Source: Nymphaea colorata | Lineage: Eukaryota; Streptophyta; Magnoliopsida; Nymphaeales; Nymphaeaceae | DNA length: 64,000 nt | Direction: 5' to 3' | Assembly: GCF_008831285.2 (NCBI RefSeq) | Contig: NC_045139.1 | Location: forward strand, 2,550,704 to 2,614,703 | Shown here: positions 1,055 to 48,300 of the stretch, piece by piece | Numbering within the stretch: position 1 is the stretch's first letter | Layout of the letters: every line of letters starts with the position of its first letter | Position numbers and translations under genes: made by a program | The notes under the pieces: generated by a model | Told to the model about the DNA's origin: nothing | Databases searched by the model: none | The model's input: only the letters and a program-made list of their open reading frames with translations

Positions 1055-2954
1055 TATATATATATATATCATTTTTCTATCATAAGCAGCAATTTAATTA
1101 CATTCTTGACTTATTTGAAGTTGAGAGCCCTAATTAGTTGGTGCAGCTGAGGCAGGTGATCGGTGCTTCACTCTTGTACATTGTCATTCTTACAAAATGT
1201 ATGTTTTTTCTGTTTTTGGGCCTAGGAACTTGACAAGTTGGAAGAACTGGTACTCAGTCATTGTGAAAACCTCACCAGGTGTCCACTTTTTTCGAGCAAG
1301 ATGACACACTTACGGACATTGGATTTTGGAGGTTGTGCTAGGATGACTGAACTTGATCCATCTATTGGGCATCTCAAGAGCTTGACTGACCTGAATTTGT
1401 ACAACTGCAAATCACTAAAGGAACTGCCTCAAGAGGTTTCTCAGTTGACCTCACTTGTAAATCTTAACCTTACTGGTTGCTTCCAGATTTCAGCTCTGCC
1501 TGAATCCATGAGACACTTGAAGCAACTGAAGTGGCTGTATCTAAAGCGGTGTTCCTCGTTGACAGAAATATCTGAATGCATTTGTTCCTTTCTCAATCTT
1601 GAACTGCTAGATGCTTCACACTGTCAACATATTGCAGTTTTGCCAAACTGGATTGAAAAGCTTAAGAGCTTGATTGTGCTTGATTTGAGTTGGACAGCCA
1701 TTGAAGAGCTGCCACATTGCATTGTGTCTCTAGAGAACCTTAAGCGCCTATCAGTTTCTCATTGCCATGGGCTCAAGTTCTTGCCTTGGTTCCCACCTTC
1801 CCTCACCACACCCGAAGCAAGGGGCTGCGGAAAGCTTGAGGACGTTCCTGGCATTAAGCAGATGAAATTGTTACGAGGATTGGACCTTAGAGGATGTAGA
1901 AGCCTTGACGACTCATTCTTGGAAAGACTTCAGGTAAACATCTTGGAAAACCGTTGTTATGTCTTTTCGTCCATTGATAGGGGTAACTCTGAAGGTTACC
2001 AAATTAGTGGGAGTTGGGAGGTCACAATTTTAAAACCCAAACCTTGCAGCAAACAAGGTCAAAGTTACAAGATATTCTCTCTTCTTTGAAGAGTTTCCAC
2101 TCAATCAAAATGCACAACTTGGTCCTTTTTCTATAACTTCAATTGAGTAGACCGTTTAGTAGGCGGGAATGTAGAGCGTGTTTCTGAGAATTCCAATTGG
2201 TCTGACTGGGATTGTAAAGCAGAGCTTCGATTCAAAGATGTTTGTAAAAGTTAATGGAAGCTTATGAAGGTTCTGGCATTCGTTAGTGGCATCCCATCTA
2301 AGAAGGCATTCAGTTTCACCTTTATGGATATGTTTATGGCTTTATGCTTACTCACTAACCACGATATCTCCATCATCTGTTTTCTCCTCTGTTTTCCAGA
2401 AAGCAAACTTTCAAAATCTAGGAGATTTCTCCATCTCGTCATATCCACAGTCCCCCTCTTTCCTTCTTCCCAAGCAGTTCGAGACAGCCATCTTGTACTT
2501 GCATGTAGATAAAAGCAGCTTGGACAACATTTGCTCGGAACTAGACGAAAGTAATGGCTCGGAACTTGTTCATAAAAGCATTCCAAGCGATGGAGCTATA
2601 GACAGCCAGCCGGTCAGAGTTGTTTTGAAAGAGATAACGACAGGTGATGCTAAATTCCAGTTTTCAGCTTTAATTGGAATTCAATGGCACGGAACTAGTG
2701 AAGAGGAGGAATATAGGAAGTTGCCCACGGCTACATTTGGGAGGGATAGCGAGCTGATGAAGATGGCAACAGAAGGAGAATTTAAGAGAAATGACGACGC
2801 CCGGCAGAGGACGATGATGACCATGCGTGTGTCCATCGACGGCTGCGTCCTACTCCACGGTGATTTATTCACATATACGGAACATTGCGATCATTGGTTA
2901 TATCCCGATCCGATTGAAGCTGACGATAATTTTGTTATTGTGAAATTTGGTTGA
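1..2954 (+). CDS. TNL immune receptor, 3' part (LRR exons plus post-LRR exon); 5' end outside window
   Basis: Three exons join in phase 0: 1-357 (open at the window edge), 1226-1933 and 2400-2954. Donors are CAG|GTAAAC at 358 and 1934; acceptors are CCTAG|GAA at 1226 and TCCAG|AAA at 2400. The first two exons encode LRRs of the plant TNL type (L..L.L..C..L..LP), for example 'LKSLTDLNLYNCKSLKELP'. The last exon (184 aa) begins KANFQNLGDFSI and carries the cluster's post-LRR domain with SELMKMATEGEF and VSIDGCVLLHGDL, ending at TGA 2952-2954. TIR and NBS exons would lie upstream of base 1. LRR and post-LRR regions of TNLs sense effectors and hold the receptor inactive; the effector here is unknown. 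No frameshift or stop is seen, so this part could be functional. A damaged inverted copy lies at 59.57-64.0 kb. Confidence 0.85.
1002..1070. repeat. (TA)n microsatellite in intron
   Basis: About 68 bp of almost pure TA, interrupted once by GATA, within the 358-1225 intron of the first TNL. The inverted copy of this intron near 61.14 kb has only a short TA run, so the expansion followed the duplication or was lost in the copy. Confidence 0.95.
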
Positions 2955-9389: not shown

Positions 9390-10620
9390 TCAGCAAGTTA
9401 AGAAGCAACTGAACTTGCTGCCTCTAGAGAATTGTCGCTCACTAAATAGCGAAAGAGTTGTCGGACTCCATCGTCTTACTAGAGAAGCTTGAGTTCCAAT
9501 CCATTGCTCATTGCTGTCGCCTCAGGTTCCCGCGAGCTTATGCTTCTGTTGCATCAAAAGAGCGATGGAATGTCACCAGCAGGTGCGGACCGAGGAAACT
9601 TCAGAAAATCTCCAATTGGAGAGCCTTCAAAGAGACGATACTACTCTTGCCTTCAGCTCCTCCTCCTCTCACTGAACTCTCCGCAACAGGTGGCCGTGAA
9701 TTAGAAACGATAGCAGATGTCTCAAATGCAAAGAGATTACGGGAATTGGATCTGAGCAGCTGCCAAAAATTTGTGGACGTTCCTTGCTCATGGAGGATGC
9801 AGAAGCCTCGCAGCTCACTGAGAAAAAGAGTCAAGGTGAATGGCATATTAACAAATGTTTTTGTGTCTATAGCCATTAGCTACTCTCCCTTCAACTGGTA
9901 GATGTAAATTGTGATTATCACAAACTTGTGGGTAGTCGTAATTGCAATCCAGCGGGGAAAATACCCGTCATACTCATGCATAGAAGCCTCAACATTAGCA
10001 TGATATCTACTCTGTTTTCCAGTTCTATCAGCTCATTAGACCTTGACATTCACAAGGGCATTTTCTATTTTCAGTCCACCAATGCCACTAGACAGATCTC
10101 TTTCCTTTGGTTTTTTGTTGCAAATCTATCATTTTTTTATATTTGTGTAAGTAATTTCCAACTCATTTTACTTTCTCTCATTTTTAGTTTTTTAAACCTT
10201 TTAAAATTTTATCGTATTTTTACCATATTATACTTAAAAAAAAACTAAACTAAACAGCAAGGAAGTTTTTTGTGACCATGGGAAGCCAGCCTTGACGGCA
10301 TCGTTGTTCATGTAGACATCCCTACAGATGACGCCCAGTTGCTGTTTCAAACCTCAATTCAATTCAGGGATCCATTTGATAACATCTGCGAACAACACGT
10401 CCCCAAAGTGGAACTTGGAGAGGGCATGGCGAGACGATGACGGTGGCGGGTGGAGGATCTGAATCTCACAGGAGGTCGATGATGCATGTTTCTGTCAATT
10501 GCTGGTGGTTACCTCAGGAGTCCAATCGATGGCGGATGTGATAATCATAATATGTGTGTTGATATGTCTTCTAGTGCCGCCGTCCGGCTGAATTTCGGTG
10601 GACCAATATAATATTATCAT
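9390..10620 (+). pseudogene. TNL remnant (end of LRR exon plus post-LRR exon)
   Basis: Fragments read KQLNLLPLENCRSL (near 9.40 kb), SDSIVLLEKLEFQSIAHC, PPLTELSATGGRELETIADV and LRELDLSSCQKFVDVP (to 9.78 kb), matching the last LRRs of TNL-A and B. After a gap, 10.28-10.55 kb reads VVHVDIPTDDAQLLFQTSIQ, EQHVPKVELGEG and MTVAGGG. This is closest to the TNL-A post-LRR domain (VNINITTDDARLLFQTSIQ) but is broken by a stop and a frameshift and lacks the ING-to-GDL part intact. The downstream flank at 10.66-10.96 kb resembles the 3' flank of TNL-A at 17.6-17.85 kb, so this is the tail of a tandem duplicate whose 5' part was deleted. Confidence 0.85.
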
Positions 10621-11931
10621 GGTCCTGCTACTGCTCCCTCTGTAGATTTCGGCTGATCAGCAAGAGCAGGGGAACATAAAGCTTGTGATTTTCTAGTCCT
10701 ACTACTCGTTCACTTACTTCTCTTGAGGATGTTTGCATTTCGGGAAAGAAGAAACCAGGCACAGCTTTTTGCCATTTCATTTTCTTATTTTCCTTGCTAT
10801 TCTTATATAATCAATTAGCTATGAAAGACTTGAGTGTCTTCTTCTCTTAATTTGTAAATGCAAATGAGAAAATGAGCAAAGGCTAGACAGGCACTCCAAA
10901 CGATTAAGCACGCATCACATGGACCAGTCGTTCTATTCAAAACCTACAGATAAGGCCTGTTTGGATGCCATCAAAATTGAGTTTAATGAAAGCCTAGTTT
11001 TGTAAAAGGAACTCAAAAAATTCGTTGGTTCCTTTAACTTTGATTTTATTGTTGGTCCCCGGTGAACTGAGGCTTATTTATTTTCGGGCTATGGGGTGCT
11101 GCTTGTATCTTGTCTACTCTTCCTTTGTGACATAGGCCTTGACTCTTTTATTATTTATTAACAGATTTATTTTTTTGAGTTGAGCTGCTGTCATCACATA
11201 AATTTCTAAAAATTAAGTGGATAAATTCATAGTCTTAGCTATACGAAATAATATTTTTTTGACGGGTAAATTTAGTCAAAGCTTCAAAACATGCTCAATT
11301 GAGAACTGACCCATATAACTTTTTTCTTTTTTTTTGTACCATTTTACAAAACTTGTGCAGCGCAAGGATGACACCCACTAAATCAAAATAAAAGCAACAT
11401 GAAAATGGATTAGTGTAGTTAACTAAGGAATTTAGAACCAGACGGTCTTTTTTTTTTAATTGATGCGCTTATCTTTATATTAGTAAATTATCATATATAT
11501 ATATATATATATTGTATTATATATGTTATAAATTATTTAATTTTCGTCATCCATACCTATTGCTTTTGCATGAATAAGATTATCTACACAGTAAAACCAC
11601 TTTTTTCTGGCGTTTTGCTTGTTTTCACATGTACATCATCTCAACTTGCTAAACCTATTGAGAAATAACGGAAAAAGAAGAGTCTAGGCAATAGGGTTCC
11701 AAGTTAGAACAAGAAACAAAGTTAGCTTCTAAAGCTAACTGCCTAACAGCATGATTTCCGAGATGATGGAAATTCAACCCAAGAACTGTTTCATGAAAAA
11801 ACAATGGAAAGGCACGGACATGAGCATAAGCCAAAGCCCTCTGCTCCTTCCATCTCGGACGGTGTCCAAGGTCACGAGAGCTATCGAGTGATTCACAGTT
11901 TCGTTGAAGCACCAAATTTGGCGTTGAGCGA
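10621..11931. other. Upstream region of TNL-A
   Basis: Contains the duplicated 3' flank (10.66-10.96 kb), a (TA)n tract at about 11.49-11.51 kb, and the presumed promoter and 5' UTR of TNL-A. I could not choose a TATA box among several AT-rich candidates. Confidence 0.5.
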
Positions 11932-14900
11932 ATGGGTCGAGAGATTGTACAGAGATTCTTGCCACCGGCTGCGATCGCCATCATCACGGCCATGACCTTC
12001 TTTTTCTGGTCCCATCAGTCCAGAAGGGCTAGAGTAAATTCGGAGAGGTCTGATTCGGACGACGGTAAGGATGATGCTTCGCCTCCACCGCCGGTGAGGG
12101 AAGACGGATTCCAGTATGATGTGTTTCTGAGCTTTAGGGGACCAGACACTCGCAAGGGCTTCACAGGCCATCTCTACCAAGCATTGAAAGAGAAGGGCAT
12201 AATCACTTTCATCGACAGTGAGACGCTGGAGAAGGGGCAAAATGTGGAGGAGCTATACGGGTGCATCGAGAGATCGAAAATCTTGGTGCCCATCTTCTCT
12301 AAAGGCTATGCTGATTCAAAGTGGTGTCTGAAGGAGATACACAAGATGGTAAAGTGCAATAGGCTGATCATACCGGTCTTCTTTGATGTGAATCCAAAAG
12401 TTGTCTGTCATCAAATTGGCTCTTTTGAACGTCCATTTAGGAGGTATCGTAAGAGTGAAGGAATAGACAAGGGGGAGGTAAGCAAATGGAGTGATGCTTT
12501 AAGAAGAGCAGGGAGAATCTCGGGGTATAATTTGGCTGATACTGAAGGGTGAGTTGCATAGTTCCTCATTCATTCTCATTAAGCAGCACTAAAATTCATA
12601 TACTAGTGAACTGGCAACTAAGAAGCACCGTCAATAGCCTTAGATGTGCTAATTTCTTTGAATGGCTTAAGATTGGCGATAACAAATAAGGTTAGTGTTC
12701 TCTATGTAAGCATTTTTCTTTCCTTTCGATCATACCCAGTATACATTCTTGCTTTTTTCACGTTCTTGGCAGAAACGAGGCAAAGCTTATCCTGCTCATT
12801 GTGAAGAGGATTCTGACTGAAGTGAGTAAAACCTCTCTATTTGTAGCTAAACATCCAGTAGGACTCAACTCTCGTATTGAAGACGTGGAAAAAATGCTTA
12901 ACGTTAAAGCCCAGGATGTCAGAATGGTCTGGATCCATGGGATGGGTGGCAGGGGCAAGACCACTCTTGCTAAGGCTGTCTATAACAAAATGTCTTCTCA
13001 TTTTGATGCTTGCGGCTTCATTCCTGACATCAGAGAAGTAGCAGAACGATCCTCCAAACTCGTTTCACTCCAAGAACAGCTGCTGTACGATGTTTTCAAA
13101 GAACTAAATGTGAAAGTAAACAGCATCAGTCAGGGAATTGGCATTATCAGTCGGCGACTTCAGATTACCAAGGTTCTGCTAGTTCTTGATGATGTTGATA
13201 ATGAATCACAACTCGATGCATTGGCTGGCAGCTTGAACTGGTTTCGCCCAGGGTCAAGAATCATCATTACTACCAGAAATAAGGGGCTGTTAAGGGAACC
13301 AAGAGCGAAGCAAAGTCATGTGTATGAGGTTAAGGAGCTTGACCCTGACCAATCACTCAAGCTTTTCAGCTGGCATGCATTTGGGACAGAGCAACCAGTT
13401 GAGGATTTTGCCGATCTTTCAAAGGAAGCTACATCTATTGCTGGTGGGCTGCCATTAGCCCTTGCCATCTTCGGGTCGCACTTCTTTGATCTGAAAACAG
13501 TCAAAGAATGGAGGGTTATGTTGGAAAGGTTGAAGGAAGATCAAGATAAAGAAATTCACCAAAGGTTGAGGATAAGTTTTGATGCACTTGATGCAAAAGA
13601 AAGGAAGGTATTTTTGGACATAGCATGCTTTTTCGTTGGGCTGGAAAGAGAGCTTCCAACTCTCATGTGGGAGGATTGCAGGTTCTTTCCAGACATATCA
13701 ATCAAAGTCTTAATGCACAAGTCTCTACTTAGTATAAATTATGATACCGGGAAGTTTGAAATGCATGAGCATATTAGAGATATGGGAAGAAAAATTGTGG
13801 AAGAGGAGAGCCTTTCAAATCCAGGAATGTATGGCAGGAGGTTGTGGAAAGAAGATGAGATACTAGATTTACTGCAAAAAGGAAGAGTAAGAGCACATCA
13901 TTTTCAATAATAACAATGATAATGATAACAATACTATTATTGTTATTAGTTTCATTTTTTTCGATTTCATTTTAATGATGTCCATGACTCTATTAGACTA
14001 CCCTCTGTTGCGAAACAATAAAACTAGTTGTTATTGTTCATCTGCTTTGGTTTGAAAATAGAGCACGTTGTGAGTAACTAGAACACCTAGGGAGCTTGTA
14101 TACTGTAGAACTGTGCTGGAAATATATAAGAAATATTTCTCATTATAAAAGAAACTCATTTTCTTTGGGTCTCAATCACTTTGAAATGCAGAGAGCGACA
14201 AATATTGAAGCCATCCAACTCTTTCGTGGAAATACCAGTTCAATGTCTGTGGACGCAGAGACTTTTGCCTCAATGTCTCAACTTAGAATGCTTCGATTGG
14301 GAAAGGTAACGTTGGAAGGTAAGTATGAACGTTTTCCCAAAAGGCTTAGATGGTTGCAATGGACTCTATGTGACTTGGATTCATTGCCTGGTGCCCTTCC
14401 TCTTGAGAATGTCATTGTTCTTGACTTATCTTGGAGCTCGATAACTCAAGTTTGGAACCGGCAAACATTTGCAGAGATCAAGGTAAAAGAAAAGTCTTCG
14501 GGTATATTGCCTTTTTGACTTCATCAATTTTGTTTATTAGCTACACGGGGTTATGTGGATCAACGTGATCGATATCCTTATATTGTGTGCATCATATCAG
14601 CCACAAAAGAATTTAGACACATAAGATTTTTTTTTTTTTTTTGGGAAGATAAATAGAAAGCCAATGCAAGTTAATGCATCAGTATTAAGATTGATTTCTC
14701 AAAATTTTCAGGAATTTGAGGATGAAAACATCAACACAAATCCCTTACAATGTTGCTAAGGGACACACACATTGCACATGGATATTGAATTTTTGACTTT
14801 CCTTTAGCTCGTGTAGATAGAAAGGTGAAGAAAACTTTACTTCTTTTTATGGGAATTGTTCTGATATTCTGATAAAACAATTTTTCCTTTAGGTCCTTGA

Positions 14901-17573
14901 CAAATTGAGAGTCCTAAAACTCAATGGTTGTTGGAATCTTGCTGTCTGTCCAAATTTTATAAGAATGCCACTTCTAGAGAAACTGGATTTTGAATATTGT
15001 GAGAGGATGAGAGAACTTGATCAATCTATTGGGCATCTCAAGAGCTTGACTCACTTGTCTTTGAGAGACTGTCATTCACTGGTGGAACTGCCTCAAGAAG
15101 TGTGGCAATTGATCTCACTTGAAATGCTTGACCTTACTCGTTGCTACCAAATTACAGCTCTGCCATCACTGTTTGGGGATTTAAAGCCATTGAAGCAGCT
15201 TTTGCTTGTCAAATTGAAGGTCCTCAATCTTCGTCATTGTCGGAACCTCACCATGTGTCCAGATTTTACAAGCATGCCACATATAGAGAAATTAGATTTT
15301 GGATATTGTCAAAAGATAACTGGACTTCATCCATCTATTGGGCTTCTCAAGAGCTTGACTCACTTGTCTTTGGGCTGGTGTGAATCACTAAAGGAACTGC
15401 CTGAAGAAGTTTGTCAATTGACCTCACTCCAAAAGCTTGACCTTAGTTGTTGCTCTCAAATTTCAACTCTGCCTATATCCATGAGAGACTTGAAGCAACT
15501 AAACTTGTTGTTTCTTGTGGGGTGTTCCTCGTTGGAAGAAGTACCTGAATGCATTTGTTCATTGCTCAATCTTCAAGTACTAAATTTTCGAGAGTGTCGT
15601 TCTCTTGCATCTTTACCCAACTCGATTGGCAACTTAAAGAGCTTGGAGATACTTGATTTGAGTTGCACAGCCATTGAAGAATTACCAGACTCCATTGCAT
15701 TGCTTGAGATGCTTGAGGTCCTATCAGTTGCTCATTGCAAAAGACTCAAATTCTTGCCAGCTTCTGCTCCTGTTGAGCCTTCAAAGAGACAAGACTACTC
15801 TCTCCCTCTGCTCCCGCCTTCCCTCACCGAACTCCATGCAGAAGGTTGTTATACTCTGGAAACAATTGCAGACGTCTCAAATACAAAGGGATTACTGGAA
15901 TTGGACCTAAGGGGCTGTGAAAGGCTTACGGACATTCCTGGCATTGAGAAACTGAATTGGTTAAAGAGCCTGAAGCTTGGAGGATGTAGAAGCCTTTCCA
16001 ATTCACTGAACAAAAACGTGCAGGTAAGTCTCATTTTCATGAATATGTTTTGTATCATGTCCATTAATTAGGTTCCCACCAATTATTAGCAGCACTAACA
16101 ACTTATGAATGTTACCTTCTCAACACTAAAAACCTTATCTACAGTATATTGAAATGAATGGTAATGATAGAGATATAATTTGTTTATCCATAAGATTATG
16201 TCTATTTTTTTTTTCTTTTTTCATACTTTTTACGGTTGCTTAGTTGAGACACCTACGGGGAAGGGCCTTCTTCATAGTTAAGGTTTTCCTTAGTCGTTGA
16301 GGCAGAAACATAAACTAGTCAGACAGTTCAGAAGGTGCAAGGAATTTGTTTCCATGCTTGGAAAAAGAATTTGCAGGTTGGGATGAGACGGTTCAGAAGT
16401 GTCATAACTAGTATGCAGCTGGTTGTAAGTTCAACGAGGAGCAAAACAGCTAGTACTTGTACGAGTGACATTCTTGAAGTATTAAAGGAACCTTGGACAT
16501 AAAGTTTTATGTTTTGACTTTTGAGAGCTTCAGTATAAATATGATGCATATATACCACATCAAGAGTGTATTTAAAAAAAAAAAAAATGGAGACGGTACT
16601 CGCAAGAAGGAATTTGTTATACACTTTATTTTAATTAAGATGAGCTCTGATGACTAAGCCTTATGAGGATAGCATTAACGAAAAATGCTCAAGCAACAAA
16701 ATCATAAGGTTGAGATTTGATTTAGGCTTTTCAACTTGACACACTTTACGTTCTTCTCTTGTTACCTACTTACTATCTCTGGTGGTATACTTTATAATTA
16801 AAACCATTATTTTCTGCTCAATAAATGGATTTTAGCTTTTGACTTACGCGAAATGGTTACACTTAACCAGTTCACTGCTTGTATGGCTGATCTAGTTAAG
16901 AAGCAGAGAAACCATTCTTGAGGTGGGAGACTTGTTGCACTAGTTAAACTTGCCCGTGCTTATGGTCACCTCTGCAATAGCGTACAATTGTACAAAGAGA
17001 TTCCATAGTCAATTAGTGTGATCTCTTTGCTCTGTATTTCAGGAGGCAAATTTTGAACACCTGGCTGATTTCTCCATTTCTGGGAACCTGAGCATTAGCG
17101 AGTCATCAGATGCACGCTCTCTCTACTTCTTTCTTCCCAAGTGGTTGGAGACAGGCAGCTTTTTCTTGAAACTAAATGAAAGTGAGCTTGACAGTGTCCT
17201 TGTTAATATAAACATCACGACAGATGATGCCCGGTTGCTCTTTCAAACTTCAATTCAGGCTAGACTTTGGCGACCTTATGATCACATCAACGAAAATCAG
17301 GTTCCCAAAGTGAAACTTGGAGAGTATGAAGAAATGATGATCGTGGCAGGTGGAGGAGGATTTGTGGGAAATAATGTTCGCAGGAGCTCGATGACGATGC
17401 ATGTGGCCATCAATGGCTGCCTCCTGCTCGACGGTTACCTCAGGAGTACCACCAATTGCACATTTGATGGTATGTATTTTGATGCATGTGATATCTCTTC
17501 AACTGCTGACATCAGGTATCATTATCATGGTCCTGCTGCTGCCCTCTTTCTGATTTCGTTTGGCCATGTGTAG
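11932..17573 (+). CDS. TNL-A, TIR-NBS-LRR immune receptor with N-terminal hydrophobic segment (1227 aa)
   Basis: Exons are 11932-12548, 12773-13886, 14192-14482, 14893-16023 and 17043-17573, all with GT-AG ends and a continuous frame. Residues 9-27 form a hydrophobic stretch (AAIAIITAMTFFFW) followed by basic residues, a likely signal anchor. The TIR domain spans about 61-197 (YDVFLSFRGPDTRKGF), with the putative NADase glutamate in WCLKE at E125. NBS motifs: P-loop GMGGRGKTT (262-270), kinase-2 VLLVLDDVD, RNBS-B GSRIIITTR, GGLPLAL, FLDIACFF, and MHEHIRDMG in place of the usual MHD. The LRR exon is 377 aa with two copies of the C(P)xF..MP module. The post-LRR domain covers 1052-1227 (ITTDDARLLFQTS, MTMHVAINGCLLLDG). 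Role by family: intracellular effector sensing, with NAD-derived signalling through EDS1. The Arg in the P-loop and the Glu in MHD are unusual. Confidence 0.92.
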
Positions 17574-26100: not shown

Positions 26101-28380
26101 AGTTGAAATTTAATGGTTGTAAGAAGATGAGTGAACTTCATCCATCTATTGGGCACCTCAAGAGCTTGAGTCGCTTGTCTTTGGGATGGTGTGAATCACT
26201 AATGGAACTGCCTGATGAAGTTTGTCAGTTGGCCTCATTGGAGAACCTTTATCTTAATTGTTGCAAACAAATTGCAATTTTGCCATCACATTTGGGGGAT
26301 CTAAAATCATTAGTGGAGCTATTCCTTGACAGCACCAGCATAACAACTCTGCCTGAATCTGTGGGACACTTGAAACAACTGAAGTATTTGTCTCTAAACG
26401 AGTGTTCTTCATTGAAAGAAATACCTGAATGCATTTGTGTGTTGCTTAATCTTGAAGAGATAGATGCTAAAAAGTGTGAATCTCTTGCCTCTTTACCCAA
26501 CTCGCTTGGCAACCTGAGGAGCTTGAGGAAGCTTGATTTGAGTGAGACAGCCATTGAAGAACTGCCAGACTCCTTTGTGTCACTAGAGAAGCTTGACGTC
26601 CTAGCAGTTGCTAAGTGCACTCAGCTCAAATTCATACCGGCCTCTGCTTCGACTTCTATTGTGTCTTCAGATAGACAACACTACTCCCTCCCTCAGTTCC
26701 CGCCTTTCCTCACCAAATTAAACGCGTCCAACTGCCCTGAATTGGAAATGATAGCAGATGTCTCAAATGCAAAGGGATTGAAAAAATTGAATCTTAATGG
26801 CTGCCAAAAGCTTGTGGATGTTCCTGGCGTCGAACAGCTGAAACGATTGGTGACGTTAAAGCTTGGAGGATGCAGAAGCCTTTGTAACTCATTGAAGGGA
26901 AGACTTCAGGTAAACATCTTTGAGAAAAGTAACGTTATGTCTCTTAGCCCATTAGCTTCGCTCCACTTACTTAGTAGGGGTGACTTGTGAAGGTTATCAA
27001 TAAGCAGTTTAAAACCCGACTGGGACAAGTATGCTATGTCTCTCGGGCCTTCAGCCCTTTAGCTTAGCTCCACTCACTTGGTAGGGGAGATTTATTGACA
27101 AACAACCGAGACGTCTTAGGTTCAAAACTAATACATGTCTCTTTCTTCATTAGCTTAGCTCCACTCTTTTGGTAGGAGCAACTTGTTAAGGGTTAACAAA
27201 TTGCTAAGACATCACAAGTTCAAAACCTGACCTTTGTCGAAGGTAGTCTCTAGTTTGGGAAGCGTTTCTACTCAACAGCATGCATATAGCATTCCTTTCT
27301 TAACTTTTGTTGGCTAGAGTTTCTAGGGATCATGCTGGAACGTAGTGCGTGTTCCTGGAAAGAGAAATGGTTCTGATTCAAATCGGAAAGCAAAGGTTTG
27401 TCAAAGATGCTTGCAAAAATTAATGGACACATGGGATGCAGATTAGTGCCTACCTTGTGTTTTTTCATTCCAAATGCGAGTGCAACTACTTGAGTTGGTG
27501 AGAAGATCCAGAACCATTTTCTTGAAACTGAGGGGAAGGAAAATCCCTTGAGCTGGTTCTGTGTCTGCCAAAGAGTGCACCACACTTACTGTAACTGTCT
27601 CCCTTTCAGGAGGCAAATTTTCAACATCTGCATAAATTCAACATTCGCGGAAACCCGAGCGATGGCGAGCCGTCATGTCCTCAATCTCTCTCTTTCGTTC
27701 TTCCCAGACAGTTCAACATAGGCTTCTTGTACTTGTATGTTGAAGAGAGCTGTCTAGGCAACATTGGCTCAGAACATTGGGCACATAAGCTCATAGCCAA
27801 CCTTCACTCAAATGGCAACAAAAGCACTGAAAACGAGGAAGATCATAACCACAGCATTGGCTCGATAGCAAATAGGAGCATTGAAAGTCGTGACGAAGGT
27901 GACAACCTGGATAAAAGCATCGCAAGTGGTGAAGGTAGAAGCCTGGACGGCACTAGCTCGGAACAAGATGAAAACAACGAAAGTGATGAAGATAGCAGCA
28001 TGGACAGCTTTGAAGAAGAAGAAGATAAATGCGTTGAAAGTGACGAAGACACTCTCTCGGTAGACAGCCTGGGCAAAGTTGTTCGAATAGACATCACGAC
28101 AGACGCTGCACAATTTGTCTTTAAAACTTCAATTGAAAAGGGCCTATATGGCAGGTCCCCCAACGCTATGTTTGGATGGAAGAGCAAGCTGATGAGGATA
28201 GCAAGAGAAGGAAAATTTATGGGAGCTGATGATGCTCCAAGGAGGACGACGATGGTGATGCATGTGTCCGTCAATGGCTGCGCCCTACTTGGTGGTGACC
28301 TCCAGACTGTTAGTGGGGAAGCCATAGATGGTCCTTCTTCTCTTGATGTGTTTTTTCAGTCCGTATCGTTGAACATGTAG
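20550..28380 (+). CDS. TNL-B, TIR-NBS-LRR immune receptor (1402 aa)
   Basis: Exons are 20550-21202, 23510-24623, 24784-25107, 25563-26909 and 27610-28380, all GT-AG and in frame. The N-terminus MGGAFSHFCC fits an N-myristoylation signal (Gly2, Ser6) with nearby Cys. A 17-aa repeat (residues 26-59) precedes the TIR (about 71-214; YDVFLSFRGPDTRNGF, WCLKE with E147). NBS: GLGGVGKTT (275-283), VLLVLDDVD, GSRIIITTRD, AGLPLAL, FLDIACFF and an intact MHDHIRDMG. The NBS exon has exactly the same length as in TNL-A. The LRR exon is 449 aa. The last exon (256 aa) starts EANFQHLHKFNI, then has about 100 residues rich in Ser, Asp and Glu, then the post-LRR domain (DITTDAAQFVFKTSIEKG, SKLMRIAREGKF, MHVSVNGCALLGGDL). 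No inactivating change seen. Intron 1 contains a broken TIR copy. All motifs for a working TNL are present. Confidence 0.93.
20624..20725 (+). repeat. 51-bp tandem repeat (two copies) in the first exon of TNL-B
   Basis: Copies at 20624-20674 and 20675-20725 differ at a few bases and encode YSERLDYEGDEAEAPSR and YSERLDYEGDEAEASSP. The unit is a multiple of three, so the frame is kept and the acidic spacer before the TIR is lengthened. Relics at 21.5 and 51.3 kb have related single units. Confidence 0.95.
21477..21985 (+). pseudogene. Broken duplicate TIR exon inside intron 1 of TNL-B
   Basis: Reads GDEAEASSPPSSSPPSVREE and FKYDVFLSFRDQ, then a frameshift, then (after a deletion of the part corresponding to GQKVEEL through WCLKE) ITKIVECKRLITAVFFDVEP, VQHQTGPFARAFKRHH and WSAALTEAGEASGY. 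The upstream DNA also matches the exon 1 start, but the ATG is lost (ccaAGAGGTGGGGCC against cgaATGGGTGGAGCC) and the exon end has no usable donor. It lacks the catalytic glutamate segment. It arose by tandem duplication of the TIR exon. Confidence 0.9.
22581..22661. repeat. Compound (CA)n(TA)n microsatellite in intron 1 of TNL-B
   Basis: About 48 bp of CA followed by about 32 bp of TA. Confidence 0.95.
23041..23116. repeat. Compound (TA)n(GA)n microsatellite in intron 1 of TNL-B
   Basis: TA repeats with one interruption, then about 30 bp of GA. Confidence 0.95.
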
Positions 28381-30990: not shown

Positions 30991-31839
30991 CACGCATTCA
31001 AACGCTATGGCAGTGATGCATTCGGCGTCATGTGTGGGTATTGAATCAGGGGGCACCCCACTGTGGTGCCCACTTCTTTGTCTTTCCAGGCTAAGGCGTG
31101 CAGCTTCCAAGGGAATGTCGATAAAATATTGGTGCTCCTTCTATCTTGGTGTGTAAATCTTCCTTTGTGAACTAGGGTCTCGTCTTTTTATTATTTTTCA
31201 AGAACATAGTTCTTGAAATGTTCAGCTGCTCATCTCATCACATAAAAATATCGGTAAAAAGTTGATAAATTCAAGGTTTCAGCTTTACAAATATTATTTT
31301 CTGGGAGCTAAATTTGGTTTCAAAGCTTCCAGTTGAAACTCTTCTCTGTGTTTTTTTTTCCTTCATTTATTATCATTTACTTGTCAGAAGGTGAACTCTG
31401 TTACTGTGATTTTTTTTGTCCAAATATTCAGCAAATGACAATAATTTCCTTTTTCTTGGTGTGAGAATCTGACATGATTCATGCAAACTCCCCGTCAGGG
31501 CCTTATAAATTGTCTTGCTTTGTTGCAGAATCTAATTGAAGTTCTATGTTCAGTTGTTCACCTTCTCGCCCCTAGAGACAATATTTAGATTCTCGTGGTC
31601 AGGGCTAGCAACAACAACCCGGGATCAAAGCGAAGAAGCTTGAAGAAGCTCATTCCTAGTTTATGGATCGGAACGGAAAGCTGGTTTTCCAATTAATTTA
31701 TTTTCACTATGTGATTCTTGGGTGATAACACAATAGTTTCTCAACCTTCTTTTACTATTACAATCTTTTTTGAACTGCTTATTTATTCCGTCGATCAGAT
31801 CACATAGATTGAAGTTCGAAACAGCAACTGGGCATCATC

Positions 31840-32025
31840 TGTCGCCATGTTTTCGTCCACAAACAAGGCTGCCGTCAAGGCCGATTTCATCCATCTTCAA
31901 GCACAAGTTGCCATTCCGGAACAACTAATTGGGAAGAAAGCAAGGAAGAGATCATGGATCTGACGACTGACCGACATTCCTCTTCAGGGATGGAGAAGTG
32001 ATCGGTCGGCCATTGAAAGTTTGCC
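31840..32025 (-). pseudogene. Relic of a TNL post-LRR exon
   Basis: On the minus strand 'ctgtttttctg' (a lost CAG acceptor) precedes GAGGCAAACTTTCAA, coding EANFQ, the conserved start of this exon. It continues DHFSIPE, then after a frameshift reads GNVGQSSDP, SLPCFLPN and LFRNGNLCLKM, matching GNLSISESSDARSLYFFLPK and LETGSFFLKL of TNL-A. Two stops and a shift show it is dead. It probably belonged to TNL-C, whose LRR exon between here and 33.2 kb is gone. Confidence 0.75.
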
Positions 32026-33214: not shown

Positions 33215-34395
33215 TACATCTTTTATCTTGGTCCCGTTTCAACCTTTCCAACACAACTTTCCATTCTTCGTTGTTTTCAAATGAAAGAAATGCGACCCAA
33301 ATATTCTGAGGGTTAATGGCAGCCCAGCAGCAACCGATGCAACTTCCCTTGAAAGCTCAGCGAATTCCTCGGCTGGTTCCTCTGTCCCAAATGCATGCCA
33401 ACAGAAAAGCTGAAGTGATTGGGTGGCATCCAGCCCCCCAAGCTCATATACATTATTTATCTCCACTTTTGGTGCTCCCAATATTTGCCTATCTCTAGTA
33501 GTATTGATGATTCTTGACCCTGAGCAAAACCAATCTAGGCTGCCGACCAGTGCATCGAGTTGTGATTCATGATCAAGGTCATCGAGAACTAGCAAAACCT
33601 TTTTGCTCTGAATTCTTTCTTTAAATTTGTGCATTCCATCACTGGTGCTGCTTATGTCCATATTTTCAACTTTGAAAACATCACGAAGTAGTTGTTTCTG
33701 AAGGGAAATGAGACCCGAGGGTTGCTTTGCTGCTTCTCTGATGTTAACAATGAAGCTGCAGGCATCAAAGATTTGGTTATAAACAGCCTTAGCAAGAGTT
33801 GTCTTGCCTATTCCACCCATGCCATGGATCCCAACTATTCTGGCATCATCCTGGGCTTCAATGTCCAGCACTTCCATTAAATCTGCAATACGAGAATCGA
33901 GTCCTACTGCATGTTTAGCTGCAAACAGAGGGGTCTTCTTTACTTCTGTCAAGATCCCCTTCACGACACATTGGACGAGCTCTACCACGTCTCTACCGAA
34001 AGGCCAAAAAAATGCAAGTCAAGGTAATCAATGCTTTGTGCTTCTGCTCATACAATAATTGGCAATAATGTGTATGTTTTTTTGGGTCATTTTATATACT
34101 TTGAAAACAGGGGCATCACATCTTCATGGTTGGTTATAGAAAGAAAACGAAAAGAATGCATGTTTGTCATGTTTAATATGTGTACACTCTAATTTGGATC
34201 TCACAAACCAAGCAGTTTGACACACTATCAAATGATGTAGATGTATGCTGAACAATACTTGGTTTTTTTTTTAAATAAGAAAGCAAGGACACAGGCTGCA
34301 ACACATTAACTGCTTTTTTGCCATTGATTGACAAGCTGATTGCCACTAATTCATCCTCTCTCTCTCTCTCCTTTTTACTATACGCGGCTTCCTTC

Positions 34396-36310
34396 CTTCA
34401 TCCTTAAATTGGACATATCTAAGGCCTTTGACTCGGTTAGTTGGGAGTTTCTTTCTGACCTCCTCACCTGTCTTACTTTTGGTCCATCGTTCAGAGAGTG
34501 GATCCTTTCGCTTGTCACTGGGGCCCAGCTTGCGGTCACCTTCAATGGAAAGTATGGCGATTTCTTCAGTCTCAGGCGTGGCCTCCATCAGGGTTGTCCG
34601 CTATCGCCCTTGCTTTTCAACTTGGTCGCCGAGAGCTTTTCTGCTCTATTTCAGCACACAACGGGGCCCAGCTTGCGGTCACCTTCAATGGGAAGTGTGG
34701 CGATTTCTTCAGTCTTGGGCGTGGCCTCCATCAGGGTTGTCTGCTATCGCCCTTGCTTTTCAACTTGGTCGCCGAGAGCTTTTCTGCTCTATTTCAGCAC
34801 ACAACGGTCGTTGGCTTCCTCACGCCGCATTCGCTCCCCCACTTACAGACCTTCTCCACCCTTCAGTATGCAGATGACTTTCTCTTGTTCGGCAATGCTT
34901 CCCGCCAACTGATAGTGAGAACTTGGCTCATCTTCTGGGTTTTTGAGCTCATCTCGGGTTTTTCTATCAATTCCGCTAAATGTCACCTTTCCGTAATTCA
35001 CGCGGATCTGGCCACGGTACTTCTCGCTGAAGCGTGCTTTGGGTGTAAGGCTGCTGGCCTGCCCATGAACTATTTGGGGCTTCAGATTAAGTTGTCGCCT
35101 CCTGCATCCTCCTTTTGGGATGGAGTGGAGCACAAGCTTATTGATCGCCTTCAATGTTAGCAGGGAAAACCGTTTTCTCTCCCAAACTGTATTACTCTTG
35201 CTAGACACTGTCTTGCGTTTGTCCCCCTCCATGCTCTGGCCGTCTATCGGCCTCCTGTGACTGTCCTTAGTAGATTTGATGAGATTATTCGTAAGTTTAT
35301 CTAGAATAGGGATCGACCTTCGGATCGCCTTGCGCATTGAGATATGGTTGTCTTTCCGCGTCTTCTTGGGGGTGCTGGGGTTACCAACCTTAGTCGGGCA
35401 TGCGAGTCTTCTCTGTGTTCTTGGTGGTGGCGTCTGGCAACTGAGCATTCTCCCATCACCCAATTCATTTGTTCCAAATTCGACTTGCCTTCCCCTAGTG
35501 TTTGGAACTGTTCCATCTCTCACCCCTCTCTCTCTCACTTTTGGAAATACATGCTTTCTGTCCTTCCTCTTTTCCTCCGCCTTGCTGACCTCTCTTCGCC
35601 CACATCCCCTTCCTGGCCTCTCTCACCTACCTGCGAGTTCACTTTCTCTTCTTGCTACCTGGCCTCCTTTGGTCCATCTGTAGCGTCACTCCCACCCCGA
35701 TCCTTTTGGTCCCCTAACCCCTCTCCTCGTGCCATTGCTTTCGTCTGGCTTCTTCTTGCTGGCCACATCAACACTTTCGACCACTTACAGCTCCTTGGCA
35801 TCAGTTTAGCTAACCAGTGTCCCCTCTGTCTTGTCGCGGCTGAGTCTCGGGTCCACCTTTTTACCTCTTGCTCTTTCTTCTTTAGTGTTCTACCTTTTAC
35901 TTGGTCTTCCCTAGTTAGTAGTCTTCCAAACCCGCCATCCATTCGTCTTCTGTTTCTCTTTTGTCCTTCCTCCCACCTGTCTGCTTCCTAGGGTCGTGTT
36001 TGGAGGTCGTGACTCATTTCAACTTGGTGGCGCATTTGGGAGGAGCGCAACAACAAGGTCTTCAGGAACACCTTCTCTTCGTCAGATGGTGTGGCTCGTC
36101 TTGTGCAGGAGGATGTCCAGTTTGCCATTAGGTTAAGGCGCCGTGGTCTGTCTGCGGCTGGGTGACGGTGCTGCTTCTTCCTTCCTCTCTATTCATACAT
36201 TTCTTCTCGCTATGTATTGTATTGTATATTTCGTCTTTTTGCTTTTTTTTTTTGCGGATTGCTTTTGTATCTAGGGGACGTCTTGTCCCCAAATTTTGTT
36301 ATGTATTTCT
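34396..36310 (+). mobile_element. 5'-truncated LINE (non-LTR retrotransposon) in intron 1 of TNL-C
   Basis: Plus-strand fragments of ORF2 reverse transcriptase: KLDISKAFDSVSWEFL, GLHQGCPLSPLLFNL and the catalytic LQYADDFLLF (Tyr-Ala-Asp-Asp), then SINSAKCHLS. At 35.73-35.95 kb a zf-RVT-like region reads FVWLLLAGHINTFDHL and QCPLC, followed by WEERNNKVFR near 36.04 kb. The frame is broken many times, and the element starts within the RT palm, so the endonuclease is absent. It is inserted antisense to TNL-C. The 3' end merges into simple repeats. Target-site duplications were not resolved. Confidence 0.9.
34520..34805 (+). repeat. 143-bp tandem duplication within the LINE reverse transcriptase
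   Basis: Copies at 34520-34662 and 34663-34805 differ by only a few bases. Each spans the segment coding AQLAVTFNGK through GCPLSPLLFNL to FSALFQHT. As 143 is not a multiple of three, it frameshifts the RT. The near-identity suggests a recent event. Confidence 0.95.
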
Positions 36311-36787: not shown

Positions 36788-36855
36788 CTCCTGGCTCCAC
36801 ATCAAAGAACACCGGTATGATCTCCTGGCTCCACATCAAAGAACACCGGTATGAT
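36788..36855 (-). repeat. 34-bp tandem duplication in the TIR exon of TNL-C
   Basis: Identical copies at 36788-36821 and 36822-36855 cover the codons for IIPVFFDVEPGD. The length shifts the frame by one base and truncates the TIR after DVEPGDHTGVL. The reading frame of the following conserved part (CRQTGPFAPAFRRHH) is displaced. Confidence 0.97.
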
Positions 36856-37490
36856 GAGCCTTTTGCAGTCTACAATCTTGGTTATTTCCATTAAACACCA
36901 CCTTAAATCAGCATAGCTTTTGGAGAAGATGGGAACAAAGATTTTGGATCTTTCTATGTTTCCGAGTACATCCTCCACCTTCTTCCCCCTTTTCAACTCC
37001 TCATTGTCGATGAAAGTGGTGATGCCTTGGTTTTGCAATGCTTCATAGAGAAGGCCGGTGAAGCTTTTGCGAGTGTCTGATCCCTTAAAGCTCAAAAACA
37101 CGTCATACTGGAAGCCATCTTCCCTCACCGATGGTGGGGATGATGACGGAGACCGTGTAAAAGACTCTGCTTTACCTTCTTCAGAATTAATTGGCCTCCC
37201 TGTTTTTCCTCTAGACCTTCTTGATAGACGAGACCAGAGGAAGAAGGTGGTTACAGTGGCGATCATACCATACAGATTCCTCAAAGATAGAGGTCTCTCT
37301 GTCTCTCTCAATGCCAAAGCTGCTTTCACAATGTTCTCCTCTCGCTGGCGGTCGTTTAGCTAATGAATACAGAGAAGGCAGCAGGGATATGGATGACAGG
37401 ATGAGGTTGGGTTGTGAATTTTCTTGTATCTGTATGTGGGTGAAGAAGGCAGGAGAGGTGGAGCTGCTCTATCTAAGTGCTTCAAGCATA

Positions 37491-41852: not shown

Positions 41853-44604
41853 CTAACCAAAATTCACCAGAACGATTGGATGTTCAGAATCAGAAAGAAA
41901 ATAGTTGTATGAGTTGCTGATGTCACCACCGATTAAGACACTGCCATTGATGGAAGCAAGCATAATCATCATCCCCCGAGCCTGTCCTGCAAATCTTCCT
42001 TGTCTTACCATCGTCATCAGCTCGCTATTCCAATCGAAAGTAGCCTCAGGGCGTCTATATCCTCTTTCAATCAAAGTTGTGAAGGTAAATTGGGCATCAG
42101 CTGTCATGACATCTATTTGGAGGACCCTGCCCAGGAGCCCCGCGCCTTTATCCAGTTTCAAGCCACTGTTGTCCTCGCCGCTTTTAATTCTCTCATCTAG
42201 TCCCGAGCTAATATCTTCGCTGCTTTCAAGGCTGAGGATGCCCATATCTTCGCCACTTTCATAGGTGAGAACGCTCTCATCTTCATTACTTTCAAAGCAT
42301 GCATCTACTTCCGCTCCAACGCTGTCCAGGTCACTATCTTGTCCACTTAAGGTTTCTATGTCAACGCTATCTCTGTCACTTGCATTCCCTTCATTTGACT
42401 CCTGTTGCGAGCCAAGAACATTCCCTTCATTTTATTCGTGTTGCGAGCCAAGAACATACGGGTTTCTGTCTCCCTCACCAATGCTATCTTTGCCACTTGC
42501 AATACCTTCTAGTAGCTTTTTGTCTTCGTCACTTTCGATGCTTTTATCTAGTTCGAAGCCCTTGTTGTCTATGCTGCTTTCATCTACAATCAGATATAAA
42601 TACAAGGAGGCCCACCTAAATTGATTGGGAAAAGGAAAAGAGACACCTTGTGAATATGACGGCTCGACGTAGATCAAGGTCCCAGCGATGGAGAATTCAC
42701 TTAGACGTCCAATGTTTGCCCCCTGAAAAATAGAACGAGTAGGTACCATAGTGAGCCAACTAGTCAAATTTTCTGCATGACTATAATCTCTAGTTAGCTA
42801 AAGTTGAAGAGAAAAGAACTCTATTTACATTCAGTAAAGAGATAGCATATTTTTTTCCTTGAAAGAAGTTGTTTACCTGAAGTCTTTCTTGGAATGAGTC
42901 ATGAAGGCTTCTACATCCTCCGAGCACTAATTTTACCAATCGTTTCAACTTCTCGATGCCAGGAACGTCCACAAGTTTTCTGCAGTTTTCTAGATCCAAT
43001 TTCTGCAGCCCCCCTGCATTTGAGACATCTGCTATCATTTCCAGTTGATGACAGTCTTGTGCATAGAGCTTGGTGAGGGAAGGAGGGAATTGAGGGAAAG
43101 AGTAGTGTTGTCTCTCTGAAGATTTTTCATCACCACTTGATGACACAACATGGCTCTTCAACAACATCAATGATCCAACAGTTGCAGAAGCCGGCAAGAA
43201 TTTGAGCCTTTTGCAACGAATAACTGATAGGACCTTTAGCTTCTGTAGTGAGACAATGGAGTCTGGCAACTCTTCAATGGCTGTCAAACTCAGATTAAGC
43301 CGCCACAAGCTCTTCATGTTGCCAAGAAAGGTGGGCAAAGATGCAAGACATTTACAGCCGCCAGCGTCTAGTACTTCAAGATTGAACAATGAACATACGC
43401 AATCATGTATTTCTTTCAATGAGTGACAACCCTTTAGAATTAACGACTTCAGTTGCTTCATTTGCCCCATGGATCCGGGCAAACCCCTTAGTGATTTACA
43501 TTTTTTCAAAGACAAGTGTGTCAACCTCTTGAGATGCCCAATTGATGGATGAAGTTCACTCAACTTAACACATTTTTCGAAATCCAAAGTCTTTAAATGT
43601 GGTATGCTTGAAAAATCTGGACACATCGTGAGATTCTTACAGTTACAAAAATTTAGGACTTTCAATTTGTCAAGCGTCAATGACTTTAAAACTCCCAATT
43701 GTGACGGCAAAGCTGCAATGTTGTAGCAATTGGTAAGGTCAAGCTCTTTGAGAGAAGTCAATTGCCAAACTTCTTCAGGTAGTTCCTTTAGTGATTCACA
43801 GCCCCTCAGTTGCAAGTTAGTCAACCCCTTGAGACGCCCAATAAATGGATGAAGTTCAACCATTTGCTTGCAGCCATTAAATTGCAATTTCTTTAAATGT
43901 GGCATACTCATCAAATCTGGACAAAGCCTGAGGTTCTTACAATACCTAAGTTTTAGCACTTCCAAATTTTCAAGCGAGTTCTCCTTCAATGACTTAGAAT
44001 CCCCTTGTTGTGATGGCAAACTTATAATTTGAGAGCAATGAGTGAGGTCAAGCTTTTTTAGTGATGACAATCGACAAACTTCTTGAGGCAATTCCCTTAG
44101 TGATTTGCGGTGCTTCAAAGACAAGTAAGTCAGACTCTTCAGATGTCCAATAGATGAATGAAGTTCACTCATCTTCTCACAATATCCACAGTCCAATGTC
44201 TCTAGACTTGGCATGCTCGTAAAATCTGGACACATGGTGAGCTTGGAACAATCATTGAGATATAAGACTTTCAATTTCTCAAGCAAGGGCTGCTCCACTG
44301 CCCTTGAATCCCCCAATTTCTTTGGCAAAGTTGTAAGTTGGTAGCACCCACTGAGGTTAAGAATTTCGAGTGAGGTCAACTGACAAAATTCATCAGGCAG
44401 TTTCTTAAGTGCTGTATGACTCAAAGACAAGTTAATCAAGCTCTTGAGATGCCCCATAGTTGGATGAAGTTCAGTCATCTTATGACAACCCCCAAAGTTC
44501 AATATTTGAAGATGTGGCATGCTCGTAAAATTTGGACAAATGGTGAAATTGTGGCAATTATGGAGACTTAAAAATTCCAATTTCTCTAGCAAGAGAGGAG
44601 AGAC
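41853..44604 (-). pseudogene. TNL-D: 5'-truncated TNL (LRR and post-LRR exons)
   Basis: Exons: complement 44604-42877 (LRR, 576 codons; acceptor GCACAG|GTC) and 42722-41853 (post-LRR), joined in phase 0. The LRR exon holds four copies of the module starting CPxFxSMPxL, the longest LRR of the cluster. The last exon starts GANIGRLSEFSI, then an acidic Ser/Asp/Glu-rich stretch, then QIDVMTADAQFTFTTLIERG, SELMTMVRQGRF, ASINGSVLIGGDI and HPIVLVNFG. A single in-frame TAA at 42434-42432 sits in the acidic stretch (GSQHE*NEG, where the neighbouring copy reads GSQQESNEG). Upstream TIR, NBS and linker exons are missing; transposon-like DNA and a copia element follow instead. An open frame extends from the LRR into that repeat to 44754, but no promoter is evident. 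Confidence 0.88.
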
Positions 44605-45304: not shown

Positions 45305-48300
45305 CCCCCTCAAGTTGGTGTGTGCAAATCTGAAACACCCAACTTGATTCTTAAAGTTTGAAAACTGTCTTTCCCCAATGGTTTAGTGAAAATATCAGCT
45401 AGTTGTAAACATGATGATACATCATGAGCCTGAATTATTCCTTGCTGAATTTTTTCTCTTATAAAGTAACAATCTAGCTCTATGTGTTTCGTTCTCTCAT
45501 GAAAAACTGGATTTGCTGAAATATGCAGAGCAACTTGATTGTCGCAATATAAATTGACTGTGACTCCATCCTAAGTCATTCAATAAAGCTTTTAACCAAA
45601 CAACTTCACAAGTTGTCAAAGCCATTGCCCGGTATTCTGCTTCAGCAGACGATCTGGCAATAGTAGACTGCTTCTTTGATTTCCAAGAAATAGGACTATT
45701 CCCCAAGAACACAATATATCCACTAACTGATTTACGAGTGGTAGGACAACTAGCCCAATCTGAGTCACAATAGGCCCTCAATTGTTTTGCACTTGATGAG
45801 GATAAAAATATTTCTTTTGCTGGTGAAGCCTTCAAATACTTCAATACTCTAAGTGCTGCTTCATAGTGTGTAGTTCGTGGCGATTGCATGAATTGATTGA
45901 GAACTTGGACTGAATACATTATATCTGGACGAGTAATGGTTAAATAGATCAAACGTCCAACTAACCTCCTGTATTTAGCTGGATCTTTCAATGAAATACC
46001 ATCATTGGGAGTTAAACGCAATTTTTGCTCCATTGAAAAGTCTATAGGCTTGGCTCCTATCAAACCTGCATCATTCAAAATATCCACGATATATTTTCTT
46101 TGACTTAGAAATATTCCCGATGGCGCTCTTGCAACTTCTATGCCAAGAAAATACTTAAGTATTCCCAAGTCCTTAATGTGAAATTTCGAATGTAAATATT
46201 GCTTAACTGAAGCAATTCCTGGTTCATCATTTCCTGCAATGATAAGATCATCAACATAGACAAGAATAACAATAAATTGTTTTTCATGTTTCCGAGTAAA
46301 GAGAGTATTGTCAGCTGATGATTGAATGAAACCAGCGCCTTTGAGTGCAGATAATAGCTTGTGAAACCAGTTACGTGGCGCTTGCTTGAGTCTGTACAGA
46401 GACTTATGAAGGCGACATACTTTATTACTAGAATACTCCCCCTCACACAGAAGGCCTGGAGGAATGGTCATGTATATTTCCTCATGTAATTCTCCATGTA
46501 TAAATGCATTACTCACATCCATTTGATATAAATGCCATCTTTGAATAGAAGCAAGAGCAAGAAGTGTGCGCATGGTTGTTAACTTTGCAACCGGAGCAAA
46601 TGTCTCATGATAATCAAGGCCCTCTAGTTGAGTGTATCATTTAACAACAAGTCTGGCTTTGTAGCGTTCAATACTTCCATCTGAACGCCATTTTATCTTA
46701 TAAACCCAACGACAACCAATGAGATTTTTGTGTGGAGGCAAAGTAGTAATAGACCATGTACTGTTTTGTTCAAGAGCCTGAATCTCATCAGCCATAGCAC
46801 TTCGCCAATGTTGATACTTAACCGCTTCCGCATACGAGCTAGGTTCAACATTACTCATGATAGAGGTTAAAAATGCATAATGAGATTTAGAGAATTTGTG
46901 AATAGGTAAATAATTGTGTATGGGATAACGTGTACCTGAGGATTGCTTTGTTGAAGTAAATTCCTTAGGCGGTGAACTTATAACCATCACATTGGAACAC
47001 ACATAGTCTTGAAGATAGGATGGTGAATGACGAGGACGACTAGATTTCCGTAGAGCAAGTGAATCTGGAGGAGGTGGATCATCTAACATAGGTCGATGAT
47101 CTGAAACTGATAGATTTTGGTCATTGTTGATGGAATCGGGAGGTTGAGTAGGTGATAACGGGGAGGAATTTGTTGGAACACCATTCTCACACGATGACAT
47201 ATATTCCTCTCCAAGGTAATCTGGTTGAGGATGAGGTAAAACAACATTGTTCAAATCGTTTGTATGGCATTGTTCGGTTAGAAATGGAAATTTATCCTCA
47301 AAAAAAGATATATCTCTGCTTGTAAAAATTTGTTTGGTATCCAAATCATATACCCGATACCCTTTCTAATTATGAGGATATCCGACAAAAACACATTTTT
47401 GTGCACCTGATGAAAACTTATGCATGGGGTTTAAATTTTTGGCATAACACAAGCATCCAAAAACACGCAAATCTTCATAATTGGGTTTTTTATGAAAGAG
47501 AAGTTCAAACGGAGATTTGTTAATTAAAAGAGTTGACGGCATTCTATTAATTAAAAAGGTTGCTATCAAAATACATTCACCCCAAAAAGTTACTGGGAGA
47601 TTTGCTTGAAACCTAAGTGCTCGCGCCACCTCTAGTAGATGGCGATGCTTCCTCTCAACATGTCCATTTTGTTGAGGAGTTCCAACACATGAGGTTTGAT
47701 GTTCTATGCCATGCTCATGAAAATATGCTTGCATATTATGAGCTGTAAATTCAGCACCATTATCACTCCGAACACATTTCACATGAGTATTGAATTGAGT
47801 AAACACCATGGCACAAAAACGAGTTAAACAAGAAAATGTTTCAGATTTGAACCTCATCAAGAAAACCCAAGTAGATTGTGTAAAATCATCTACGATAGTA
47901 AGGAAGTAACGTGCACCCGTGTGAGACGACATAGCATATCCTCCCCAAATATCACAATGAATCAAGCCGAACGGATCACTTGCTCTACTAGTACTAGTTG
48001 GAAAAGGTAAACGAGTGAATTTACCTTTAAGACATGCATCACAAGGAGAATCATGCTTGGAAATAGAAATGTTTTCATTCAATGAAAAAGACTTATCAAA
48101 TGAAGGATGTCCAAGTCTCATATGCCATATATGAGCTGTCTTATTACTAGGAGAAGCAAACAAAGCATGAGAAGTAGTTGGAAGAAGAAGATGGTAAAGT
48201 CCACCGCTCAAGTTACCCACTCCAATCAACTTCCTCGACAAAGGGTCCTGAAAAGCACAACAGGTTGGAAGAAAAACAGCAATACAATTAGTAGACTTGG

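Follow-up and report, generated by a model that had tools for sequence, protein, structure and literature searches.

A post-LRR domain of water-lily TNL receptors without an existing domain model

The stretch of Nymphaea colorata DNA analysed here (the window; 64,000 nucleotides, C2:2550704-2614703 on contig NC_045139.1) falls within a cluster of TIR-NB-LRR (TNL) genes, which join a TIR domain, a nucleotide-binding (NB) domain and leucine-rich repeats (LRRs). Several of these genes end in a separate exon behind the LRR exon, and this exon encodes a real post-LRR (PL) domain of water-lily TNLs for which there is no existing model. It most likely acts in the manner of C-JID (PF20160), the PL domain of known TNLs, and a different fold is possible. 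Copies of the domain in the window are labelled A to G, and copies elsewhere in the genome (407,766,735 bases in 783 contigs were searched) carry L numbers, for example L032.

The last exon and its copies

The layout is best seen in gene C (11932-17573, plus strand), which we modelled as five exons and 1227 residues with hand-picked splice sites, predicted from the DNA alone. Exon 1 (11932-12548) encodes a hydrophobic N-terminal segment and then TIR, exon 2 (12773-13886) NB-ARC and a ROQ1-type winged helix, exon 3 (14192-14482) the NB-LRR linker (NLL) and exon 4 (14893-16023) the LRRs. The Pfam matches of the model are to TIR (E 5e-34), NB-ARC (2e-31), WHD_ROQ1 (1e-15) and LRR_14 (2e-27); with TIR, NB-ARC and LRR together in one gene model, gene C is a TNL. 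The last exon (17043-17573, residues 1052-1227) encodes 176 residues in an intact frame without an acidic insert, and Pfam names nothing in it at E <= 0.01. ROQ1 and RPP1 are the closest PDB relatives of the protein, and among the 60 PDB matches listed for it the best stretches stop at or before residue 966, inside the LRRs. The exon would be joined to the LRR exon in vivo: a CAG acceptor immediately precedes its start in all five copies inspected (A, C, D, F and G), and a phase-0 donor closes the LRR exon for A, C and F. In gene A this LRR exon (1226-1933, plus strand) ends in ...ERLQ in phase 0, with a CAG/GTAAAC donor.

An initial annotation of the window had listed seven sites for this exon and held that it closes every TNL of the cluster. 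Four of the sites carry well preserved copies: A (2400-2954, plus strand, 184 residues), C and D (27610-28380, plus strand, 256 residues, with a long acid-rich insert) are intact, and F (41853-42722, minus strand) has a single TAA after residue 96, within its acid-rich insert, both halves being otherwise well kept. The other three are decayed. Copy B (10255-10635, plus strand) contains three TGA codons and is clear only in the domain middle, at 10282-10422; at 31.8 kb a remnant is indeed present, but copy E lies on the minus strand (31807-31884, the ITT.DA block, with another piece extending to about 31978); and G (59586-59695, minus strand) has kept its start (EANFQDLQQF) and its end (DDNFVIVEF) and lost its middle. 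The statement about every TNL was thus too broad, as B is frame-broken, E a remnant, G without its middle and F interrupted. A start that is always EANF or KANF holds for A, C, D and G but not for F, which has GANI, nor for B and E, which have lost this part.

The four well kept copies are homologous. All six pairwise alignments among A, C, D and F (F joined with X at its stop) score 9.8 to 34.5 standard deviations above shuffled sequences, with 0/200 shuffles per pair reaching the observed score, and in tblastn comparisons inside the window the copies match one another with E values as low as 2.7e-30. When these four copies were made into a profile, it picked up B (10282-10422, E 1.6e-10) and, on the minus strand, E (31884-31807, E 0.0013). 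G, near 59.6 kb, reaches just E 0.35 and was identified from three features: it starts with EANFQ, it ends with DDNFVIVEF and its 3' flank resembles A's. The domain has two halves, the first with the consensus EANF..L..FSISG......S..QSLSF.LPK.F..G.LYL.V and the second with VV.I.ITT.DA.F.F...I, a helix-like SELM...G.F, R.MM.M.VSI.GC.LL.GDL and a final V.V.F. The fold may be beta-rich, strands and helix being labels put on the consensus by eye with no confident prediction behind them. A block of the form [IV][ND]G[CS].L[LI].G[DY] is present in 4/4 window copies. Between the halves lies the acid-rich insert, about 98 residues in D and about 144 in F and almost missing in C and L033. Exon starts elsewhere in the genome are more varied (EVNF, EAHF, EASF, EANL, AEF), and the frame is open across the domain in A, C, D, L002, L003, L005, L007, L032, L033, L037, L040, L051-L054 and L055.

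Mapping the LRR matches over 234 kb around the window (C2:2530704-2764703; matches grouped by hand, profile cut-off E <= 0.05) gave 16 LRR groups, nine of which are followed by both domain halves, the stop-bearing F among them. Four are followed by a remnant (B and three more near 2665.3, 2684.0 and 2698.3 kb), and the remaining three are without a profile match at this cut-off: G, the gene with its LRR at C2:2625101 and the TNL with its LRR at 2719021. The gene at 2625101 has no recognisable PL exon, and its near-duplicate at 2666574 keeps the domain end alone; TIR, NB, NLL and LRR are almost equally spaced in C2:2625101-2632338 and C2:2666574-2673933, about 41.5 kb apart, and the two stretches are probably a recent duplication. 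The TNL at C2:2713812-2722168 (L025, L026) is distinct, having a very long LRR exon with an 831-residue frame. Behind its 2713812-2721444 portion an open frame at 2721818-2722168 (KFEKLRNVRLP...AAIHFMLPRL) is of similar style and resembles the start of the PL domain.

Genome spread and constraint

Searched against its own genome, copy A gives 13 matches, all within C2:2.54-2.75 Mb. The idea of a domain limited to one cluster was dropped because three further queries matched elsewhere: copy C (19 matches, among them C2:2510223, C2:2307376, C4:19031963 and one C9 fragment), the C4 copy L040 (11 matches, four of them at C11:20.73-20.79 Mb) and the C11 copy L051 (seven matches, one on C7). These counts are lower bounds because the search scores the best candidates alone, and some matches are two pieces of one exon. 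What had been called a domain of this lineage therefore needs a wider frame, with relatives on several chromosomes of the one genome searched. The C4 gene has TIR, NB, NLL and LRR ahead of the domain, and in L032 and L033 an LRR precedes it; the C11, C7 and C9 copies are taken to have a TNL context. On a profile built without them (its columns having been drawn from an alignment that contained the held-out rows), five copies held out from C4 and C11 reach 19.6-45.0 bits, and for 5/5 of them none of the 244-269 reported shuffles matches the score. Four pieces of ∼55 residues, each with one TAA, lie at C7:14244760, C2:27017654, C2:22966567 and C10:1718543; they share 83-86% identity with the C4 query in its second half and were perhaps carried there by a mobile element.

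Nonsynonymous and synonymous rates (dN and dS) were estimated by the Nei-Gojobori method for 10 pairs of copies. The dN/dS ratio is 0.33-0.39 in three C11 pairs, 0.41-0.50 in three C-group pairs and 0.52 for A-L005, so that 7/10 pairs span 0.33-0.52. Three young A-group pairs (dS 0.10-0.24) have ratios of 0.68-0.93, including A-L003 (0.93) and L003-L002 (0.90). Among the window copies (six pairs, the domain halves of A, D and F joined without the insert) the PL exon has a dN of 0.42-0.61 and a ratio of 0.50-0.98. The dN values of the other exons of the cluster are 0.20-0.21 for TIR, 0.23-0.29 for NB, 0.28-0.34 for NLL and 0.27-0.33 for LRR, from gene pairs that vary by domain and in some cases from partial frames with one stop. 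At the protein level copy C is 29-39% identical to A, D and F in the PL exon, and the pairs used for TIR, NB, NLL and LRR share 57-67%. The PL exon is under constraint and is the fastest-changing among the exons compared, in keeping with the expectation for a recognition surface.

Relation to C-JID, action and origin

The initial annotation had equated the place of the exon with that of C-JID, and this agrees with the gene models: TIR, NB-ARC, a ROQ1-type winged helix and LRRs stand in front, and the domain has a last exon of its own. It follows the TNL LRR directly in gene C, an arrangement that recurs in A, D, F and flanking genes and is also that of C-JID in RPP1, ROQ1, RPS4, N and Ma; the separate last exon (as in peach), the similar size and the variable length of the domain middle are further likenesses. 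It differs in its other conserved blocks, in the lack of PF20160 matches and in the absence of the IPxWF, GxAxCxV and CG motifs from the four window copies. A similar case is the PL region of TNL#1, a conserved lineage of TNLs; this region likewise has no Pfam match, yet according to the accessible text of its description is predicted to form C-JID-like sandwiches (PMC9806590). Like the integrated domains of NB-LRR receptors (NLRs), the water-lily domain is an additional domain at the C-terminus, but it belongs to no recognised Pfam family and occurs on several chromosomes, and is therefore no recent one-gene fusion.

We favour, with some confidence, the reading that the exon encodes a genuine TNL post-LRR domain working like C-JID. 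By analogy with C-JID in RPP1, ROQ1 and RPS4, the domain may pack against the LRRs as their cap; its variable loops, the acid-rich insert included, could join the LRRs in making contact with a pathogen's effector or with a host protein that the receptor guards, and it would help to keep the receptor inactive until such contact is made.

Several results weigh against this reading. A confident match over the full length of the C-JID hidden Markov model (HMM) had been set beforehand as the outcome that could overturn the claim of an unrecognised domain, and PF20160 matches 0/20 sequences, so the claim stands. The set comprised 19 copies, some partial (A, C, D, F in two pieces, L002, L003, L004, L005, L007, L011, L032, L033, L037, L040 and L051-L055), and the look-alike open frame of the 2713812 TNL, with B, E, G and the C9 fragment excluded; the threshold was E <= 10, and E <= 1 in one scan. 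A consensus of the four window copies has no match either, and a positive control, a 38-residue consensus made from published PL motifs, matches PF20160 at E 3.9e-14. Over the whole genome PF20160 gives 0 matches, but controls were equally silent and no absence is claimed. The published PL motifs include, in the accessible part of the source, IPxWF, GxAxCxV and a last Cys-Gly motif, VKKCGxxL (PMC4851768); IPxWF, GxAxCxV and V..CG..L are each found in 0/4 window copies. These results bear out the view that the ITT.DA and ING...GDL blocks are not those of C-JID. A looser form of PL motif 1, P-x-[Y/E/W]-F, as given in the text seen of PMC8813719, is found in 1/15 aligned rows (L032). The same paper describes the third motif of Saucet et al. 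as one with a conserved histidine.

Alignment methods add to these points. When the first 60 residues of each copy are aligned to the C-JID consensus with BLOSUM scoring, 2/13 copies (F and L032) exceed 95% of 1000 shuffles; among 199 control 60-mers taken elsewhere in gene C, the best is surpassed by F alone. On a 15-row profile of the domain the PL1-PL2 consensus scores -2.8 bits, with 207/466 reported shuffles as good or better, and PL-3 scores -2.3 bits, with 678/828. Neither single copies nor profiles, used as queries for PDB sequence searches, gave an RPP1 or ROQ1 match in the domain; a search with the C-JID consensus itself also failed to find these two proteins, so PDB sequence searching has little power here. 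The C-JID fold is a jelly-roll or Ig-like beta-sandwich with 8-9 strands; for the water-lily domain, AlphaFold2 models from window-only alignments of copy C (nine rows) and copy A (five rows) have a mean predicted local distance difference test score of 35.6 each and are unusable. The ratios of about 0.9 in two young pairs would also fit relaxed constraint.

Several candidate links were discarded. By hand, FSIPG...QS.S..LP could be lined up with the beginning of C-JID, but this gained no backing from shuffle and profile tests, and PDB matches to malate dehydrogenase (E 1.3) and KIF19 (E 1) were taken as chance. So were the weak Pfam matches to Pentapeptide_3 (E 0.052), DNA_pol_phi (0.035), BKRF4 (0.92), Beta-prop_SPT8 (0.82), DUF6631 (0.15), Say1_Mug180 (0.0097), zf-MYST (0.11) and DOR (1.9), because they fall below the family cut-offs and each occurs in one copy alone.

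A C-JID-like action leaves two origins to be weighed; the initial annotation, too, had set a strongly diverged C-JID beside a separate beta-rich domain. In the first the exon is a true C-JID by descent, an ancestral angiosperm post-LRR domain that, in the lineage of the water lily, diverged past the reach of the HMM. The domain agrees with this in its position, its exon and its approximate size, and the order F-[ST]-I-S/P-G ... LSF.LPK.F ... strand is loosely reminiscent of how C-JID begins; PKWF occurs in L032, and FSIPG in L003 and L033. The sequence tests for the link are, however, at or near chance, every Pfam scan is negative, and a 2025 survey of 305 angiosperm genomes with the Pfam model, as far as its accessible text goes, reports no C-JID outside the eudicots (PMC12787737). 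Descent from C-JID is plausible, and we put it at roughly even odds; sequence gives no ground for membership, and the domain is not filed as a C-JID member.

In the second origin the water-lily lineage has a post-LRR domain that arose independently, replaced C-JID and fills a comparable role with a different fold. At the settings used there is no sequence link to C-JID, Pfam or PDB entries, and the ITT.DA and [IV][ND]G[CS].L[LI].G[DY] blocks differ from the published PL motifs. Position and gene layout nevertheless match those of C-JID TNLs, TNL#1 lost all Pfam similarity yet is predicted to have kept the fold (PMC9806590), and the C11 copies reveal the extent of drift inside one genome. We consider this origin doubtful; that the fold is the domain's own and unrelated to C-JID, early-branching flowering plants and eudicots having filled the sensing end of TNLs separately, we hold to be unlikely. 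A functionless, degenerate tail of an LRR gene, open by chance, could account for the broken B, E, F and G and the ratios of 0.93 and 0.90, but is very improbable because constraint is found, with open frames in many copies and ratios of 0.33-0.52 in 7/10 pairs.

Surrounding features and the age of the domain

The P-loop of gene C (12773-13886) reads GMGGRGKTT and its MHD motif MHE; both are atypical for a TNL and might affect activity. The TIR exons at 11932-12033 (plus strand) and 36802-37359 (minus strand) open with a hydrophobic stretch and then basic residues, for example AAIAIITAMTFFFWSHQSRRAR, and this start resembles a membrane or signal anchor; flax L6 carries an N-terminal anchor of such a kind. 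Between gene F and the next TNL sits an element at 45497-49633 (minus strand) that from its gag, integrase and reverse transcriptase motifs we take to be a Ty1/copia-type retrotransposon, its long frame broken by stops. Overlapping frames at 34340-35160 (plus strand), presumably of a non-LTR (long terminal repeat) reverse transcriptase type by their motifs and apparently with an internal repeat, adjoin an NB exon remnant at 33239-34018.

Expansion of NLR genes, TNLs included, is reported in the accessible part of the N. colorata genome paper (PMC7015852), and a study of the water lily Euryale describes, in the text available, integrated domains in nine TNL genes; the portion of its main text at hand uses neither 'C-JID' nor 'post-LRR' (PMC9140740). 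Among the papers listed in literature searches, with subscription journals mostly outside reach, none by its title or abstract describes the water-lily sequence family.

Two surveys conflict on the age of the TNL post-LRR domain, one placing it by the Pfam model, in its accessible text, in eudicots only (PMC12787737) and the other reporting PL motifs already in Amborella (PMC6691002), and the water-lily domain bears on this conflict. Because a domain in the same place in a Nymphaeales genome escapes the Pfam model, HMM surveys may undercount post-LRR domains in early-branching plants. The copies described here supply seed sequences for a new domain model, and with this family one can ask whether the TNL end that contacts effectors is an ancestral feature or was gained repeatedly.
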